64,000 bases of DNA from the NCBI RefSeq assembly GCF_019603315.1, contig NZ_CP080649.1, forward strand, positions 3,659,436 to 3,723,435. The letters are read 5' to 3'. The position numbers and the translations under genes were made by a program. Position 1 is the first letter of the stretch. Every line of letters starts with the position of its first letter. The DNA comes from Ruficoccus sp. ZRK36. GTDB lineage: Bacteria > Verrucomicrobiota > Verrucomicrobiia > Opitutales > Cerasicoccaceae. This document shows, one piece after another, positions 6,321 through 17,941 of this stretch. Below the pieces are notes generated by a model. That model had not been told where the DNA came from, searched no databases, and was given only the letters and a program-made list of their open reading frames with translations.

Positions 6321-7715
6321 TTAGAAAATCACCTGGATCTGCCCGCGAAAGATATGCAGCCCGTAACCTGCTCCGGTGAATGACCCGCTCTCGGGATTAA
6401 CGGTACCCCCGTTGGGCATGTTGTACTGGCCCGAGTAGTCCAGATAGCTGTACCCGAACTGGAGTTTCAGGTCGTCGCCGAGGATGTACCAGTTAAAGCC
6501 GAGATAAAAGGACTGCGCCTCCTGAAAGAAGAGTCGGCCGACATCGGGAGCATTCGGCACCGTGCCGTCGATCTGCACACCGCGACCATCTGTATTGATG
6601 TAGGCATACTGAAAGACCACTTCGTAGTCGTCGAAGAAACGGTACGAGGGCGTGACGACTATCCCCCACGGAATAGCCTGGCTGGATGCCGTCACGTTAC
6701 CACCCGAGGCCGCACTGAGCTGTGCGTTGTCGTAGAGCTTCCCGTTCTCCACCCAGTTCATCAGGAACTCACCCGAAATCATAAACCCGTCCCACTGGAA
6801 AATCACGTAGGGGTTTACGCCGATGGAGCTGGCATCCGAGTCTGAATTACCGATGTAGAGGTTGGTCGCCGAGGCCGAAGCCCCGTTAGCGGTAGGCTGC
6901 CAGTAGGAGTTCCCGGAGGCTTGGTATCCGGTATTGATGCCAGCCTGCAGTTTCATCGTCTCACCCTCTTCCGATGACAGATCCCAGGAGCTGCGCAACT
7001 GCGCGTAAACGCCGATTTTATTCTGAAAGGTGTTCCCCGGTGAGGAAGAAGCGTAGCCGTTAACCAGGGCAAGCTCGGCCCCGAAGTTATCGTCGATCTT
7101 CCAGTCACCAAAGAGCCCCATGTGCTGGGCGGCAAAGCCGAGGTCGCCGTTGGCCTCCGTCCCTTCAGGGATCTGGTTCTCGGTCCCGGTATCGTTCCCC
7201 CAGTAGTCCGTCACCAGCGAACGCTCGATCGTGCGCAACTTCGAGGTCGAGGAATATTCTTCTTCATCGAAGCGCACCTTTCTCAGCCCCGCGTAAAACT
7301 TCATATCGGGGTTTTCGATCTCCTTGTAAACGTAGGCATGGTCGAGCCTCGCCTTGGCGTCTCCAAAGTTCGGCACGATAACCGCGCCGAAGCCGTCGCC
7401 GATCTTACCCTCCAGGGTGAGATAGGCCCGGCGTAGTTGAAAGTTGTTACGCGTTGCCGGGTTGGGTCCGCCACCGTTTTGCGCCTGCATGTAGTTATAC
7501 TGAAACTGCAGCAGCGCGCCCACGGTCAGCTCCTCTGTGCGCTTCGAGTTCGGTTTAAAGTCGAAGCTCCCGTCACTCTCGATAATCTCGTTCGCCTCCT
7601 TCTCGGAGAGGTAGCCTTTTTGCTCCAGCAAACGGATCAGCTCCTCGTCCGCGGCCTGGGCAAGCGGAGCAGCCAGCAGCAGCCCGAGCAGGGCGATGCG
7701 AGAGAGTAGCGGCAT
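6321..7715 (-). CDS. Outer-membrane porin of the phosphate-selective OprO/OprP type
   Basis: 464 residues. Signal peptide about 1-21 (cleavage near 'AQA|ADEE'), then a short helical segment ('ELIRLLEQKGYLSEKEANEI'), which is typical of OprP-family porins, and a long series of alternating amphipathic strands ending in an aromatic residue ('GQIQVIF'), the usual outer-membrane insertion signal. Pairs such as 'NNFQLRRAYLTLEGKIGDGF' match the OprO/P Pfam profile as I know it. Substrate cannot be read from sequence; the family includes phosphate and pyrophosphate channels but many members are generic. The gene stands alone between nadK and an epimerase gene. Confidence 0.85.
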   Translation of the reverse strand: MPLLSRIALLGLLLAAPLAQAADEELIRLLEQKGYLSEKEANEIIESDGSFDFKPNSKRTEELTVGALLQFQYNYMQAQNGGGPNPATRNNFQLRRAYLTLEGKIGDGFGAVIVPNFGDAKARLDHAYVYKEIENPDMKFYAGLRKVRFDEEEYSSTSKLRTIERSLVTDYWGNDTGTENQIPEGTEANGDLGFAAQHMGLFGDWKIDDNFGAELALVNGYASSSPGNTFQNKIGVYAQLRSSWDLSSEEGETMKLQAGINTGYQASGNSYWQPTANGASASATNLYIGNSDSDASSIGVNPYVIFQWDGFMISGEFLMNWVENGKLYDNAQLSAASGGNVTASSQAIPWGIVVTPSYRFFDDYEVVFQYAYINTDGRGVQIDGTVPNAPDVGRLFFQEAQSFYLGFNWYILGDDLKLQFGYSYLDYSGQYNMPNGGTVNPESGSFTGAGYGLHIFRGQIQVIF

Positions 7716-7757
7716 GGCTCGAACAAAGCCATAACCGCACCCGTACTGGCAAAACCT

Positions 7758-8672
7758 TTAGTGTAACAATCCCGTGAACCCGTCACGGAAATTTTTAAAA
7801 GCCGGTTGCCAGCCTAACTCACGCTCAATCAGCCCGGCATCAATCCGGCGATTCGGGAGCTTACCACCGCTTGAGCGGCGGCCACTGTCGCGGGCACTTG
7901 CCTGCTGCGGGGTAAAGGTCGGCGCCGATTGCCCGAGTTGCTCCGCGAGCCAGCCGATGATCTCGCCGCGCGAGGCAGGCTGCCCATCGACCACATTGTA
8001 CACGCGCTTGGCAATCTCCGCAGGTGCCTCAAAGGCCGCGAAAACCGCGCTGGCAATATCGTCGCGGTGGATCAGATTGAGCCATGATTCACCCGACCCC
8101 GGGAAGGTCGTGTCGCCCGTCCGGAGCTTGTCCACAAAGTAGTGACGATCGGGACCATAGATCCCACCCAGTCGCAGTACGAACCAGCGACTGATGCCCC
8201 GCGCGCCCTGCAGCAGAGACTCCGACTCCAGCAGCAGCGAGCCATGCTCAGAGGCTCCGTCCGTGGACGCAGACTCGTCCACCCACTCGCCCTCGGTCTG
8301 CGGGTAAACACTGGTCGCACTGGTGTAGACGTAGGTGCCGACGTGGCCATTGGCGGCCCACTTCAGGATGGACTGCTGCCCATCGATGTAGGACTTGCGA
8401 TAGCCGTCGATCCCGCCTCCGGCGGAGCTGACGCAGTTCAGGACAAAGTCCGGGTGCGGATCGAGCTGGTCATGCCAGGTATCCTCGTCGAGGTCGGCCA
8501 CTACGACCTGGGAGAGGCCGAGCTGACGCAGCTCGGCAGCCTTGTCCGGGTTGCGGGTCAGCGCGCGCACGTCCCAGCCCTTTTCCAGGGCCTGGCGGGC
8601 GACTTCACGGCCGACGTAGCCGCAGCCGAAGATGATGAGTTTCGGTTGGTGGGGATCAGTTTTATCAGACAC
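7758..8672 (-). CDS. NAD(P)-dependent epimerase/dehydratase (extended SDR, YeeZ-like)
   Basis: 304 residues. N-terminal Rossmann motif 'LIIFGCGYVGREVARQAL' (about 12-29; GxGxxG variant) followed by 'VRALTRNPDKAAEL'. The mid-region 'YVYTSATSVYPQ' holds the Ser/Tyr of an atypical SDR active site, and 'LRLGGIYGPDRH' and 'NLIHRDDIASAVFAA' are typical of SDR epimerases and the YeeZ group. It probably acts on a nucleotide sugar or related metabolite in the cytosol, but the substrate is unknown. It is co-directional with the porin downstream and the seven-helix protein upstream, with gaps of 42 and 69 bp. Confidence 0.85.
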   Translation of the reverse strand: MSDKTDPHQPKLIIFGCGYVGREVARQALEKGWDVRALTRNPDKAAELRQLGLSQVVVADLDEDTWHDQLDPHPDFVLNCVSSAGGGIDGYRKSYIDGQQSILKWAANGHVGTYVYTSATSVYPQTEGEWVDESASTDGASEHGSLLLESESLLQGARGISRWFVLRLGGIYGPDRHYFVDKLRTGDTTFPGSGESWLNLIHRDDIASAVFAAFEAPAEIAKRVYNVVDGQPASRGEIIGWLAEQLGQSAPTFTPQQASARDSGRRSSGGKLPNRRIDAGLIERELGWQPAFKNFRDGFTGLLH

Positions 8673-8741: not shown

Positions 8742-9809
8742 TCAGTCTTCTTCGGGATCTTTCATCCGCTTGGCCGGGCGGCGGAACTTCGGCTTGGGCC
8801 GAGAAGCCTGATCATCATCGTCTCCGCCAACCGCTTCTTTCGGCTCCTCAGCGTAGGCAGCATCTTCATCGACCACCGGCTCTTCTTCCTCGATGATTTC
8901 CTCCACGCTCATGGTCGAGGGAGCGATGCGGGCCTTGTTGAAGACCGGCTTCATCATGATACGGGCAGCCTTGCGACCAGCCCCCTGATAGAAGCCATAG
9001 GCGATCAGCGAAACCGTGACCAGATCCACCAGGTTCAGCAGCATCGGATAGAGCGAGCTGCTCGGCAGGAAGCGCGAAAGCAGGTTGAGGAACGGATAGA
9101 GGAACCAGCCGCAGGCGATCACCAACACGATCGTCGTGATCCCGCGCCGCAGCTCCTCCGGCACGTCATCCTCAGGCAGCGAGCCGAGCGTGAAAAACAG
9201 CATGACGATCAAACTCGCCGAGCACGTAAACGAGCCCAACGCGAACACCATCTGAAAGCCCTGCGCCATGCCGGCGACATTTGAAAGCGCAATAAAGAAG
9301 AACAGCCCGGCGGCCATCCCGAACATCACCACGTACACGGGAAGGTCCTTTTTCGCCACGTGGATGAGGCGCGAAAGCATGAAGAACAGGAACGGTGCCA
9401 GAATCGTCCAGCAAATCCCGCGCACCAGCAAGTTGTAGGTATCCTCCGCTCCCCACAGGAAGTCTGCGTAGCGCATCTTTGCGATGAAGAAGCTCGCAGC
9501 CAGCACCATGAGGAAGGCCCCGAAGCCAACCATCGCACCGTAGTGCACGGATGCCTTGCGGCGGATAGCCTGAGTCAGGAAAAAACACCCCATCAAGCCG
9601 AAGACGATCAGGTCCAGCACGAAGGAGTAGTACGTCATGCGCTGGAAACCCGTGATCGTCACATCGTCGGGCCGGGGCACCTCAGTACGGCTCTCGGTAG
9701 CAGCCTCGCCCGTATGCAGGGGCGAGTAATCATGAGCGCGTAGGGGTGCCTGTGCATCGGCACCCTTAACGGGGGGGAGTTTATCAACGAGAACAGCTCT
9801 TTCTGACAT
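8742..9809 (-). CDS. Seven-helix membrane protein; microbial-rhodopsin homologue lacking the retinal lysine
   Basis: 355 residues: a soluble N-terminus (1-55), seven predicted membrane helices (about 58-80, 88-112, 126-149, 157-179, 185-208, 222-246, 251-275) and a charged 80-residue tail. Three helices carry type-1 rhodopsin landmarks with native spacing. Helix C has R130-x3-W134-x4-P139, matching RYIDWLLTVPL of proteorhodopsin but with Cys133 at the proton-acceptor Asp and Leu138-Ala138-type changes at the following positions. Helix F has 'GWFLYPF' (W235, Y238, P239). Helix G has 'NLVDLVTVSL' aligning with NLADFVNKIL: Asn259 and Asp262 are kept, but the Schiff-base Lys position is Val266. 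It therefore should not bind retinal covalently. Adjacent genes are an epimerase and a PIG-L gene; no carotenoid or retinal genes are visible. The rhodopsin assignment is my manual alignment, not a profile search. Confidence 0.7.
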   Translation of the reverse strand: MSERAVLVDKLPPVKGADAQAPLRAHDYSPLHTGEAATESRTEVPRPDDVTITGFQRMTYYSFVLDLIVFGLMGCFFLTQAIRRKASVHYGAMVGFGAFLMVLAASFFIAKMRYADFLWGAEDTYNLLVRGICWTILAPFLFFMLSRLIHVAKKDLPVYVVMFGMAAGLFFFIALSNVAGMAQGFQMVFALGSFTCSASLIVMLFFTLGSLPEDDVPEELRRGITTIVLVIACGWFLYPFLNLLSRFLPSSSLYPMLLNLVDLVTVSLIAYGFYQGAGRKAARIMMKPVFNKARIAPSTMSVEEIIEEEEPVVDEDAAYAEEPKEAVGGDDDDQASRPKPKFRRPAKRMKDPEED

Positions 9810-15790: not shown

Positions 15791-17941
15791 TTACAGCAGC
15801 TCGGTCTGTTCACTCTGGCTGGGCAGAAACTCCGCGTAGCGTTTTTCCCAGTCGTCGAGTTTCTTCAGGTAGGCATCGGCGTTATACGGGCAGTCTTTTG
15901 AGTCAAAGCCTTCCAGTGGGCGCGCCACCTGCCAGTCCGGCGTTCGCTTCTTTTCCCCATAGGTGAGGAAGTACGTCACTTGCTCGCCCATACGCGGCTG
16001 CGGGTCCATTTTTAGCGCAACCTCCAGTGAGGCCCGGCGAGGCTTCTTCGAGGTCTCCACACTCTTGCGGTACACCTCGGGGTTCATAGACAGATACTCA
16101 CGCTTGGCCAGCTCCTCGACCGGCATCTCGCCGGACGTAATGGATTTTCGATACGTATCGAGCAGCGCCTGGGGAGGCTCCGCATCCATCCCCAGCAGAT
16201 AGCGAATGAGCTGGTCGGTCAGCGCCTTGAGGTAGGGCTCGATACCGCGCGAGCGCAGCGCCGACCCACGGATGCGCAGCTGCTCGCCGTCGTACAGGGC
16301 ATAGTTTTTGGCCTTGTAGCAGAGCATGGCCGGATAGCTCCCGTCGTACTCCAGATCGATGCCGACTGGCATATCCCCGGCGACGCGTTTGAGCAGCCCC
16401 TCGGGATTTGCGAAATCCTTTTCCGAGCTCACGTAGATACCGTCGGTATCGGCCTCAAGCACGGTGCAGCCCTCCTGCTCGAAGGCCTCGATCAACTTGA
16501 TCAACAGCTCGCGACCGCGCCGGGTGACCTCCGCCGCCAGTTCGCTGTCCGCGAAGCGCGCCCCGCCAAAACCCAGGTAACCGTAGAAAGAGTTGATGAG
16601 GATCTTAAAGCTCGCCTGCCGCGCCTGGTACTCGGCCCGCAGCTCGGCGCTCTCGGCCTCGCGGGCGAGCGCCTTGTACCGCAGGCGTTCCTCACGCAGC
16701 TCCTTTAGCATGGGGATAAAAATACCGAGCGAATCGCCAGCCGGGTTGCGGCCGATGTGCAGCAGCAGGCTCGGGTAGAGCGAGGCCACGTCATAGTGGA
16801 GCACATGTTTATACACGCCGGTGACAAAGCTGCGCGAGTACGCCCCCTCGAAGCGGTCCACCGGCGGCGGATCGGGCAGCGCCTGCCCGGCGTGGAAATA
16901 CTTTTCCAGAAACAGCAGATCCACCTTACCACCCGTGCCGCGCAGGCAGGTCTCCTGCAGCGTCATAGGAAAGCTCTTGATCTGCGCCACATAGGTGGGC
17001 AGCAGCAGCGCAGCCACGCCCTCGGTCTCGCGCAGGTCGTCCCCGAGATAGCTCAGAAATGTTTCCCGATCCTCAGCGAACGCCTTCTGGATGTCATGAG
17101 CTTTCAGATACGTGCGCGTCTCGCGGTCAGAGATGCCGAGGTGGACGGCGACCTCTTTCAGAGAATACGAGGCCAGATCGCGCGTGGTCACATCGTAGAT
17201 CTGAATCATCAGATAGGTATCGAAAACAGTGCGCCCCGGCAGGTCGCAACGCGGAAAGTCGATCCAGCGCTCGGCAATGCGGATACGGCTGTTGCGGAAC
17301 GAAGCCTCCTGGCCAAAGCGTCCCCATCGGCACGGCACCTTGAAGCGGCCACAACGCCGCCGCAGATACTCCAGATCGAACTTGAAAATATTGTGCCCCT
17401 CGATGACATCGGGGTCCAACTCCTCCAGCGCGTCGTTGAGCGACTTCAGCAGCACGCGCTCGGCCGCATCCGTCATCTCCTCCAGCACGAGCGTATGATC
17501 CTCGCCCCCCATGCTCAGCCCGATGGCCAGCACGCGGTCCTCCTTGCGGCGTGGGCTGGGGAACCCGCCCTCCTCTGAGCAGGCCGTCTCGATATCGAGC
17601 TGGCAGCGGCGCAACTGGTCAAAGCGCAGCCCACCGAAAAGCCGGTCACGGGTCTCCAGCAGATACTGCTGCTCCAGCGGTTTGACCGCCACCACGTCCT
17701 CACGCGGGGTCTCTTTTAAAAACGCCTGATAATCCTCCGTATCCTCGAAATGCTCCAGCCGGTCAAAGCTCCCCTTTCCCGCCAGCGGCTCACCGCTACC
17801 CCTGCGGCACCAGGCGTAGGGGCTAAAGTCCACGCGGCGAACCGTGCGCGTCCCGTCTGCGCTGGCTTCAGCCAGGTGGATGCCGCCCTCGGGATCAGCC
17901 CACAGGCCGCACAGGGAAGGTTTTTCAGAGGTATCAGACAT
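15791..17941 (-). CDS. Family B DNA polymerase (DNA polymerase II-like)
   Basis: 716 residues. The 3'-5' exonuclease motifs are present: Exo I 'CQLDIET' (about 133-139), Exo II 'GHNIFKFDLEYL' (about 190) and a 'YLGDD' candidate for Exo III. The polymerase motifs follow: A 'DVASLYPSLLL' (about 390), B 'KILINSFYGYLGF' (about 455) and C 'EADTDGIYV' (about 503). All catalytic acids are intact, so it should be an active proofreading polymerase. Bacterial family B enzymes usually act in damage tolerance. The gene is convergent with the DUF5069 gene and is not near other repair genes; no LexA box was recognised. Confidence 0.93.
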   Translation of the reverse strand: MSDTSEKPSLCGLWADPEGGIHLAEASADGTRTVRRVDFSPYAWCRRGSGEPLAGKGSFDRLEHFEDTEDYQAFLKETPREDVVAVKPLEQQYLLETRDRLFGGLRFDQLRRCQLDIETACSEEGGFPSPRRKEDRVLAIGLSMGGEDHTLVLEEMTDAAERVLLKSLNDALEELDPDVIEGHNIFKFDLEYLRRRCGRFKVPCRWGRFGQEASFRNSRIRIAERWIDFPRCDLPGRTVFDTYLMIQIYDVTTRDLASYSLKEVAVHLGISDRETRTYLKAHDIQKAFAEDRETFLSYLGDDLRETEGVAALLLPTYVAQIKSFPMTLQETCLRGTGGKVDLLFLEKYFHAGQALPDPPPVDRFEGAYSRSFVTGVYKHVLHYDVASLYPSLLLHIGRNPAGDSLGIFIPMLKELREERLRYKALAREAESAELRAEYQARQASFKILINSFYGYLGFGGARFADSELAAEVTRRGRELLIKLIEAFEQEGCTVLEADTDGIYVSSEKDFANPEGLLKRVAGDMPVGIDLEYDGSYPAMLCYKAKNYALYDGEQLRIRGSALRSRGIEPYLKALTDQLIRYLLGMDAEPPQALLDTYRKSITSGEMPVEELAKREYLSMNPEVYRKSVETSKKPRRASLEVALKMDPQPRMGEQVTYFLTYGEKKRTPDWQVARPLEGFDSKDCPYNADAYLKKLDDWEKRYAEFLPSQSEQTELL

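Follow-up and report, generated by a model that had tools for sequence, protein, structure and literature searches.

Type-1 rhodopsins (PF01036), which include proteorhodopsin, xanthorhodopsin and bacteriorhodopsin, share with the proteins described here a common fold, the distribution of loop charges and, in the family to which the analysed DNA belongs, seven landmark residues. The proteins described here differ from them in having neither the retinal-binding lysine nor the helix C aspartate, in matching the Pfam family below its threshold, and in carrying long tails with conserved end motifs. Opsins without the lysine are already on record. According to Becker et al. (2016; PMC4915679), 48 of 170 haloarchaeal opsins lack the lysine and fungi also possess such proteins; these opsin-related proteins are likewise opsin homologues for which a role other than light sensing has been proposed, but they are linked to chemotaxis transducers, whereas our proteins are bacterial, long-tailed and, in the family f11, encoded next to ParA and kinase genes. 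Lysine-less type-1 opsins have also been described in betaproteobacteria and among freshwater flotillin-associated rhodopsins (FArhodopsins; PMC10308929), and they make up about 600 of the 5,558 known genes, with Guillardia among the carriers, according to PMC7714340. The betaproteobacterial Rh-noK (Yamauchi et al., 2019, as cited by others) is reported to be related to xanthorhodopsin and to occur in tandem with a working rhodopsin. It resembles the present proteins in being bacterial and in having lost the lysine, but our proteins fall below the Pfam cut-off and mostly occur in genomes in which no lysine-bearing rhodopsin was detected. FArhodopsins (PMC10308929; PDB 9r21) are bacterial as well, are supposed to work without retinal, include members without the lysine and have been proposed to act as scaffolds; they have a flotillin partner and belong to the proteorhodopsin family, whereas the proteins studied here are distant in sequence and associated with ParA and kinase genes. 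The initial annotation regarded lysine-less homologues as chiefly fungal, a view that is outdated, as haloarchaea, betaproteobacteria and FArhodopsins have been reported too.

Lysine-less opsins are numerous and their work is largely obscure, partly because surveys retain only lysine-bearing sequences. A survey of Verrucomicrobiota rhodopsins (PMC10284914) selected lysine-bearing sequences only, the 2022 'kaleidoscope' survey (PMC9601134) did likewise, and PMC11561045 mentions the lysine as present. A search of the open-licence literature gave, among the matches listed, no description of the lysine-less family or of a link between an opsin and ParA. Lysine-less opsins as such are known from elsewhere, and the search suggests that the Verrucomicrobiota family and its ParA link are new. 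The family supplies a decay series within one order together with candidate partners, and the role of an opsin without retinal becomes testable since the family is present in culture-collection strains.

The window (the whole stretch of 64,000 nucleotides that was analysed) encodes a lysine-less homologue of microbial rhodopsins of 355 amino acids (8742..9809, reverse strand, ATG start). Both the position of this open reading frame and its seven helices agree with the initial annotation. In an AlphaFold2 model of the window protein the helices span residues 54-83, 90-118, 128-149, 153-176, 183-209, 218-247 and 253-277, and the seven-helix opsin core as a whole (residues 54-277; 8979..9650, reverse strand) is also supported by fold matches and profile comparison. 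Block means of pLDDT are 77-95 in the helices and below 50 across most of both tails. The N-terminal tail of about 53 amino acids is disordered and the C-terminal tail (residues 281-355; 8745..8969, reverse strand) is charged and mostly disordered. All landmarks were found where they had been placed, on the reverse strand in each case. The helix C motif R130-x2-C133-W134-x4-P139 (9393..9422) corresponds to rhodopsin R82, the D85 position, W86 and P91, and the helix F motif W235-x2-Y238-P239, with F and L as the intervening residues (9093..9107), corresponds to W182, Y185 and P186. In helix G, the segment N259-V266 (9012..9035) begins with N259-L-V-D262, where D262 is the retained equivalent of D212, and has Val266 at the position of the Schiff-base lysine. 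Rhodopsin residues (R82, D85, W86, P91, W182, Y185, P186, D212) are given in bacteriorhodopsin numbering.

Both tails are long and variable, and their end motifs are conserved in most members. The conserved N-terminal motif of the window protein, MSERAVLVDKLPPV (residues 1-14; 9768..9809, reverse strand), has the typical form M-[AS]-E-K-x-x-L-[VI]-[DE]-K-L-P-P; M1, E3, L11, P12 and P13 are invariant in all ten rows of alignment A1, and M, E and P-P-V in all nine rows of alignment A4. The C-terminal tail carries the basic element KPKFRRPAKRMKD near its end, and a KPxF[RK][RK]P element is found near the C-terminal end in eight of the ten A1 rows, those of L007 and L010 being without it. Among nine members of the window's family, net charges are +2 to +4 for the AB loop, 0 to +2 for the CD loop and +2 to +7 for the C-terminal tail, against -2 to 0 for the BC loop and -3 to -1 for the segment preceding helix A, while the DE, EF and FG loops do not discriminate between the two sides. 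These loop charges favour an orientation with the N-terminus outside and the C-terminus inside, as in rhodopsins, so that the N-terminal motif is predicted to lie on the outer side and the basic element on the inner side. A long outer N-terminal tail without an obvious signal peptide (as judged by eye) is unusual.

The relationship to rhodopsins is visible only faintly when the window protein is searched by itself. The Pfam model Bac_rhodopsin (PF01036) gave E 0.018 and 15 bits, below the gathering score of 24.6; in a family scan a weak rhodopsin match was obtained for three of the ten A1 members, the window's included. No NCBIfam family matches the protein, and a single-sequence search of solved structures returned two rhodopsins at E 0.3 and 0.44, with a mannosyltransferase scoring better at 0.25. 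Alignment A1 consists of ten rows, with nine relatives from 54 genomes among which is the window's own. Its profile retrieved lysine-bearing rhodopsins from genomes of the order at 3.9e-14, 5.9e-14 and 2.6e-4, and among solved structures it placed a rhodopsin on top (E 0.0077), with dopamine-transporter entries among those that followed. When A1 was compared using hhalign with an alignment of 14 lysine-bearing rhodopsins of the order (A7, picked by hand from 32 frames so as to exclude near-duplicates, frames that were short and one that was not a rhodopsin), the probability was 96.9 and E 1.6e-10 over 223 columns covering helices A to G. The profile of the core alone scored 73.8 against the same 14 rhodopsins, compared to 13.8 +/- 2.1 (maximum 20.8) for 60 column-shuffled profiles and 15.8 for the reversed core. 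VIA-align of the window model gave Z 21.6-23.4 over the best 50 solved structures listed, each of them a microbial rhodopsin or a design or fusion built on one. All 18 Foldseek matches at E <=0.001 are microbial rhodopsins; one of them, 5jsi, is titled just 'membrane protein' and is named bacteriorhodopsin in the profile search of the structure database. A match of one A1 member to EpsG (8.9e-4) was dropped, as the fold matches listed are rhodopsins. The profile comparison with lysine-bearing rhodopsins, the shuffled null and the predicted fold together settle the relationship, and it is almost certain that the window protein is a non-retinal opsin homologue. Of the checks proposed in the initial annotation, the Pfam search remained below threshold (15 against 24.6 bits), the profile comparison was positive (E 1.6e-10) and the predicted structure superposes on rhodopsins (Z about 23, with rhodopsins as the matches listed).

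Among 322 genomes of the order (Opitutales in GTDB), the A1 profile matched in 21; the matches in G061 and G210 are lysine-bearing rhodopsins. A lysine-less protein was found in 19 of the 322 genomes, nine of them in the window's family, one in f3 and nine in f11. A further genome, G114, was added through a wider profile and has its opsin gene in two frames. In a sample of the class (384 genomes) all 11 matches lie inside the order, and in a sample of the phylum (387 genomes), which overlaps with the former, ten of 11 do. The eleventh (G719, E 7e-4) covers the tail part of the model alone and was counted as chance. In the samples searched, the lysine-less family was seen in one order of Verrucomicrobiota only, and a search with the f11 profile gave no relative in viral contigs. 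A single-sequence search of genome contigs gave no match; a search with the alignment returned five loci, in Cerasicoccus arenae KCTC 12870, C. maritimus NBRC 105382, C. frondis NBRC 105381 and two Verrucomicrobiota MAGs (the order of Cerasicoccus is named Puniceicoccales by NCBI).

The Schiff-base lysine position is occupied by V, L, M or I in all 19 aligned lysine-less proteins, so the loss seen in the window extends through the clade and the protein is indeed a bacterial lysine-less opsin. The set of 19 leaves out the two-frame gene of G114, a remnant in G234 and the one-helix protein of G210 described below. At the position of the helix C aspartate (D85; C133 in the window) the same 19 proteins have C, T, S, L, V or G, and the absence of a carboxylate acceptor in every member agrees with the earlier view that the protein is not a pump. 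R82, W86, P91, W182, Y185, P186 and D212 are kept in all nine proteins of the window's family, and in a joint alignment of five of these nine with seven lysine-bearing rhodopsins (A8) the invariant columns are exactly these seven. Across the 19 proteins W86 is kept throughout and P91 in 18. R82 is present in 9/9 of the window's family but in 2/9 of f11, and the rhodopsin residues in general fade in f3 and f11, where the placement of helices F and G is less sure in f11. None of the nine opsin genes in the window's family, the window's included, is disrupted (a stop inside the G003 match is the gene's own terminal stop), and in the seven pairs compared (of 45) dN of the seven-helix part is well below dS, pointing to purifying selection; for G000 and G001, for instance, dN is 0.10 and dS 0.77, and the linkers drift. 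Because the gene is intact in nine genomes and dN lies well below dS, Val266 is not a sequencing slip, the alternative that had been raised for it. In a midpoint-rooted tree that does not include haloarchaeal sequences, a branch with 100/100 support, at which long branches meet, separates the lysine-less rows from the others. A single loss of the retinal lysine within the order is favoured by this topology.

In f11 the opsin gene is the first of a five-gene operon with the order opsin, kinase homologue, fam5, ParA-like ATPase, fam3. The gaps are 10-84 nt at all eight loci measured, with one 50-nt overlap at a start that was called too early. The core of the f11 proteins is only weakly connected to lysine-bearing rhodopsins directly (E 0.005, score 26.7 against a shuffled maximum of 17.4), and matches the core of the window's family at E 5.7e-15 (score 101; shuffled mean 13.5, maximum 20.2). 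Modelled from f11 sequences only, the f11 protein has the rhodopsin fold, with Z 21.7-23.8 over the best 50 structures listed; the best Foldseek E was 2.4e-4 and three GPCR entries were among its best 50. The f11 proteins are identified as opsins by way of their link to the window's family and by their own fold model. The ATPase has the KGGVGKT motif and matches AAA_31 at 7.9e-36. The kinase homologue is of the Hanks type (PF00069, 8.8e-29), with Glu for the Asp of DFG in 9/9, and with the catalytic-loop Asp replaced by Asn in 2/9 (L042:6588-7544 and relatives); the kinase relative in G030 is also without the catalytic-loop Asp. Judged by these residues, the f11 kinase family is probably a pseudokinase family. 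No known family was matched by fam5 or fam3.

The genomes of the window's family contain fam5, fam3 and the ParA gene in 10/10 cases, away from the opsin gene. In nine genomes the three genes share a single other locus (in the window's genome on C1, about 689-692 kb), and in G001 they are divided between two contig ends. fam5 is present in 25 of the 322 genomes of the order, yet in 18 of the 19 with an opsin (Fisher p 7e-23, a value that ignores ancestry, for a pattern that spans two families). The exceptions are G011, which has an opsin without fam5, and G005, G030 and G145, which have fam5 without a detected opsin; in the stretch from G145 no ParA, kinase or fam3 gene was found beside fam5. 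An ortholog of the f11 kinase was not found in the window's family, where the best matches were at 3e-30 to 5e-21, mostly to frames of about 900-1,100 amino acids, compared to 6e-183 and 2e-197 within f11.

Two further features of these loci were observed. A gene of the uracil-DNA-glycosylase superfamily lies divergent to the opsin operon at seven of nine f11 loci (L042:9028-10026; the Pfam assignment was made on L042 only). In G030, a multi-helix protein with a basic tail (L134:8972-9925) is encoded at the place of the opsin before an operon of kinase-like, fam5, ParA and fam3 genes; profile comparison from this one sequence gave no link to opsins.

A single f11 genome, G210, carries a one-helix variant. 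At the same locus (L136:9664-10461) a protein is encoded that has one hydrophobic segment instead of seven. The two end motifs are still present, MSEKATLLTPIAPV N-terminally and KAPSKPKKRF C-terminally; its profile match covers the last 77 columns (E 2.5e-13). Since one and seven are both odd, the two ends would still be on opposite sides of the membrane. In G200 and G234, fam5 and ParA are kept, but neither the opsin core nor the kinase ortholog nor fam3 was found; G234 has a remnant with the N-terminal motif. From the G210 variant and the losses in G200 and G234 it would seem that the f11 module depends above all on the tails and on the side of the membrane on which each lies, and that the opsin core and the kinase tend to go together. 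The order thus contains a decay series that runs from a nearly full residue set without the lysine (window's family) over partial motifs (G230, G270) and little that is left (other f11 members) to no opsin core at all (G210).

Relatives cluster with genes for a ParA-type ATPase and for a kinase that is probably inactive, which points to the reuse of a light-driven protein as a membrane anchor or receptor. ParA/MinD-type positioning systems have a KGGVGKT-type ATPase (deviant Walker motif) beside small partner proteins, as is the case here, and differ from the present module in that here a seven-helix opsin is the candidate membrane partner. We know of no described ParA/MinD-type system with such a partner. 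The explanation that we consider best, whose chance as a whole we put a little short of even, is that an opsin which lost its lysine now serves as tether or receptor of a ParA/pseudokinase module. A microbial rhodopsin of an ancestor in the order would have lost the retinal lysine and the helix C aspartate while the seven-helix fold stayed, leaving a membrane protein with its N-terminus outside and its C-terminus inside that presumably no longer senses light. This protein would be the candidate membrane tether or receptor for the ATPase module: its inner tail may recruit, or be recognised by, the ATPase, the small partner and, in f11, the pseudokinase, and the module would thereby be localised, or switched, at membrane sites. 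We infer the tether or receptor mechanism, tentatively, because of the operon linkage, the co-occurrence and the one-helix variant. Membership of the module is favoured by the f11 operon and, in the window's family, by the joint presence of the genes at separate loci; counting against the mechanism are the location of the module away from the opsin in the window's family and the fact that two families represent few independent events. The missing kinase ortholog in the window's family, the genomes that break the co-occurrence (G011, G005, G030, G145, G200, G234), the restriction of the one-helix variant to one genome, the unusual outer N-terminal tail and the lack of the basic element in L007 and L010 count against it too. 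It is possible, if doubtful, that the opsin fold was domesticated as a ParA-system membrane receptor, with the function residing in the tails and a single helix able to stand in for the core. If the ParA link is true, positioning systems would have a new membrane component. The initial annotation had proposed a sensor, scaffold or helper. A tether or receptor is favoured by the ParA/kinase linkage, the end motifs and the one-helix case, and a helper of a co-resident rhodopsin is disfavoured, no lysine-bearing rhodopsin having been detected in 16 of the 19 genomes.

The main rival to a tether is a ligand-binding pocket in the window's family. As has been proposed for the haloarchaeal proteins, and by analogy with GPCRs, the emptied pocket might bind another small molecule and signal through the tails. 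The seven residues retained in 9/9 despite the loss of the lysine, together with purifying selection on the seven-helix part, speak for such a chemosensor; they leave room for a ligand, and the retention of the pocket residues R, W, Y, P and D suggests a function of the core beyond anchoring. Most f11 members, however, lack most of the pocket residues and keep the operon, G210 has no pocket at all, and there is no methyl-accepting transducer among the neighbours run through Pfam, so that we regard a chemosensor as rather unlikely.

Downstream of the opsin in the window lies a gene for an NAD-dependent epimerase/dehydratase-like protein (7758..8672, reverse strand; PF01370, 2.6e-16), and in 9/9 cases (8/8 relatives and the window) the opsin has such a gene behind it in the same orientation. 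The opsin might have a metabolic role tied to this oxidoreductase-like neighbour, the ParA link being a speciality of f11, and the location of the ParA module elsewhere in the window's family would fit this. The neighbour gene is absent from the f11 operons, though, and both families share the end motifs as well as the ParA module, which makes such a metabolic role improbable. The other neighbours assigned by Pfam in the window are a PIG-L-like gene and porin, cell-wall, RNase, nucleotidyltransferase and polymerase genes, the last including a family B DNA polymerase, here on a bacterial chromosome (window 15791-17941; PF00136, 2.8e-20, with an exonuclease domain). Neither a flotillin nor a methyl-accepting transducer is among the window neighbours run through Pfam, to which few neighbours in relatives were added. 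The opsin could also organise membrane domains or handle lipids like the flotillin-associated rhodopsins, which are proposed to act in membrane microdomains (PMC10308929), and PsFAR, one of these rhodopsins, is among the nearest solved folds listed. Fold matches within Z 1 are tied, however, so that the match to PsFAR is unspecific, and with no flotillin among those neighbours we consider this analogy distinctly improbable.

Continued light sensing through non-covalently bound retinal or another chromophore would draw on the equivalents of Trp86, Trp182, Tyr185 and Asp212 kept in the window's family, but with the lysine and the helix C aspartate gone in 19/19 it is very improbable. The initial annotation had remarked that no retinal gene is nearby; this holds for the whole genome of the window, where neither PF15461, the family of retinal-forming dioxygenases, nor Bac_rhodopsin gave a match, the latter search being positive in 39 other genomes of the order. 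PF15461 was found in two of the 19 lysine-less genomes (G007, G294) and gave no match in the other 17. A regulatory partnership with a co-resident light-driven rhodopsin, as has been suggested for the betaproteobacterial Rh-noK, would fit G007, G270 and G294, which have a lysine-bearing rhodopsin, and is scarcely credible on genome counts, on which it was rejected: none was detected in 16/19, the window's included, and no retinal dioxygenase in 17/19, some of these genomes being incomplete.

Lysine-bearing rhodopsins as such were found in 39 of the order's 322 genomes. In the f11 genomes G210 and G294, three small conserved genes, none of which matches a Pfam family, lie directly before the lysine-bearing rhodopsin (L051:5432-7024 and L052:7919-9498). 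G294, which also has a lysine-less opsin, contains two Bac_rhodopsin matches of different kinds within about 3.5 kb (L052:4614-5366 and 7160-7882), and this pair lies near a gene of the retinal dioxygenase family and genes that appear by eye to be carotenoid-forming.
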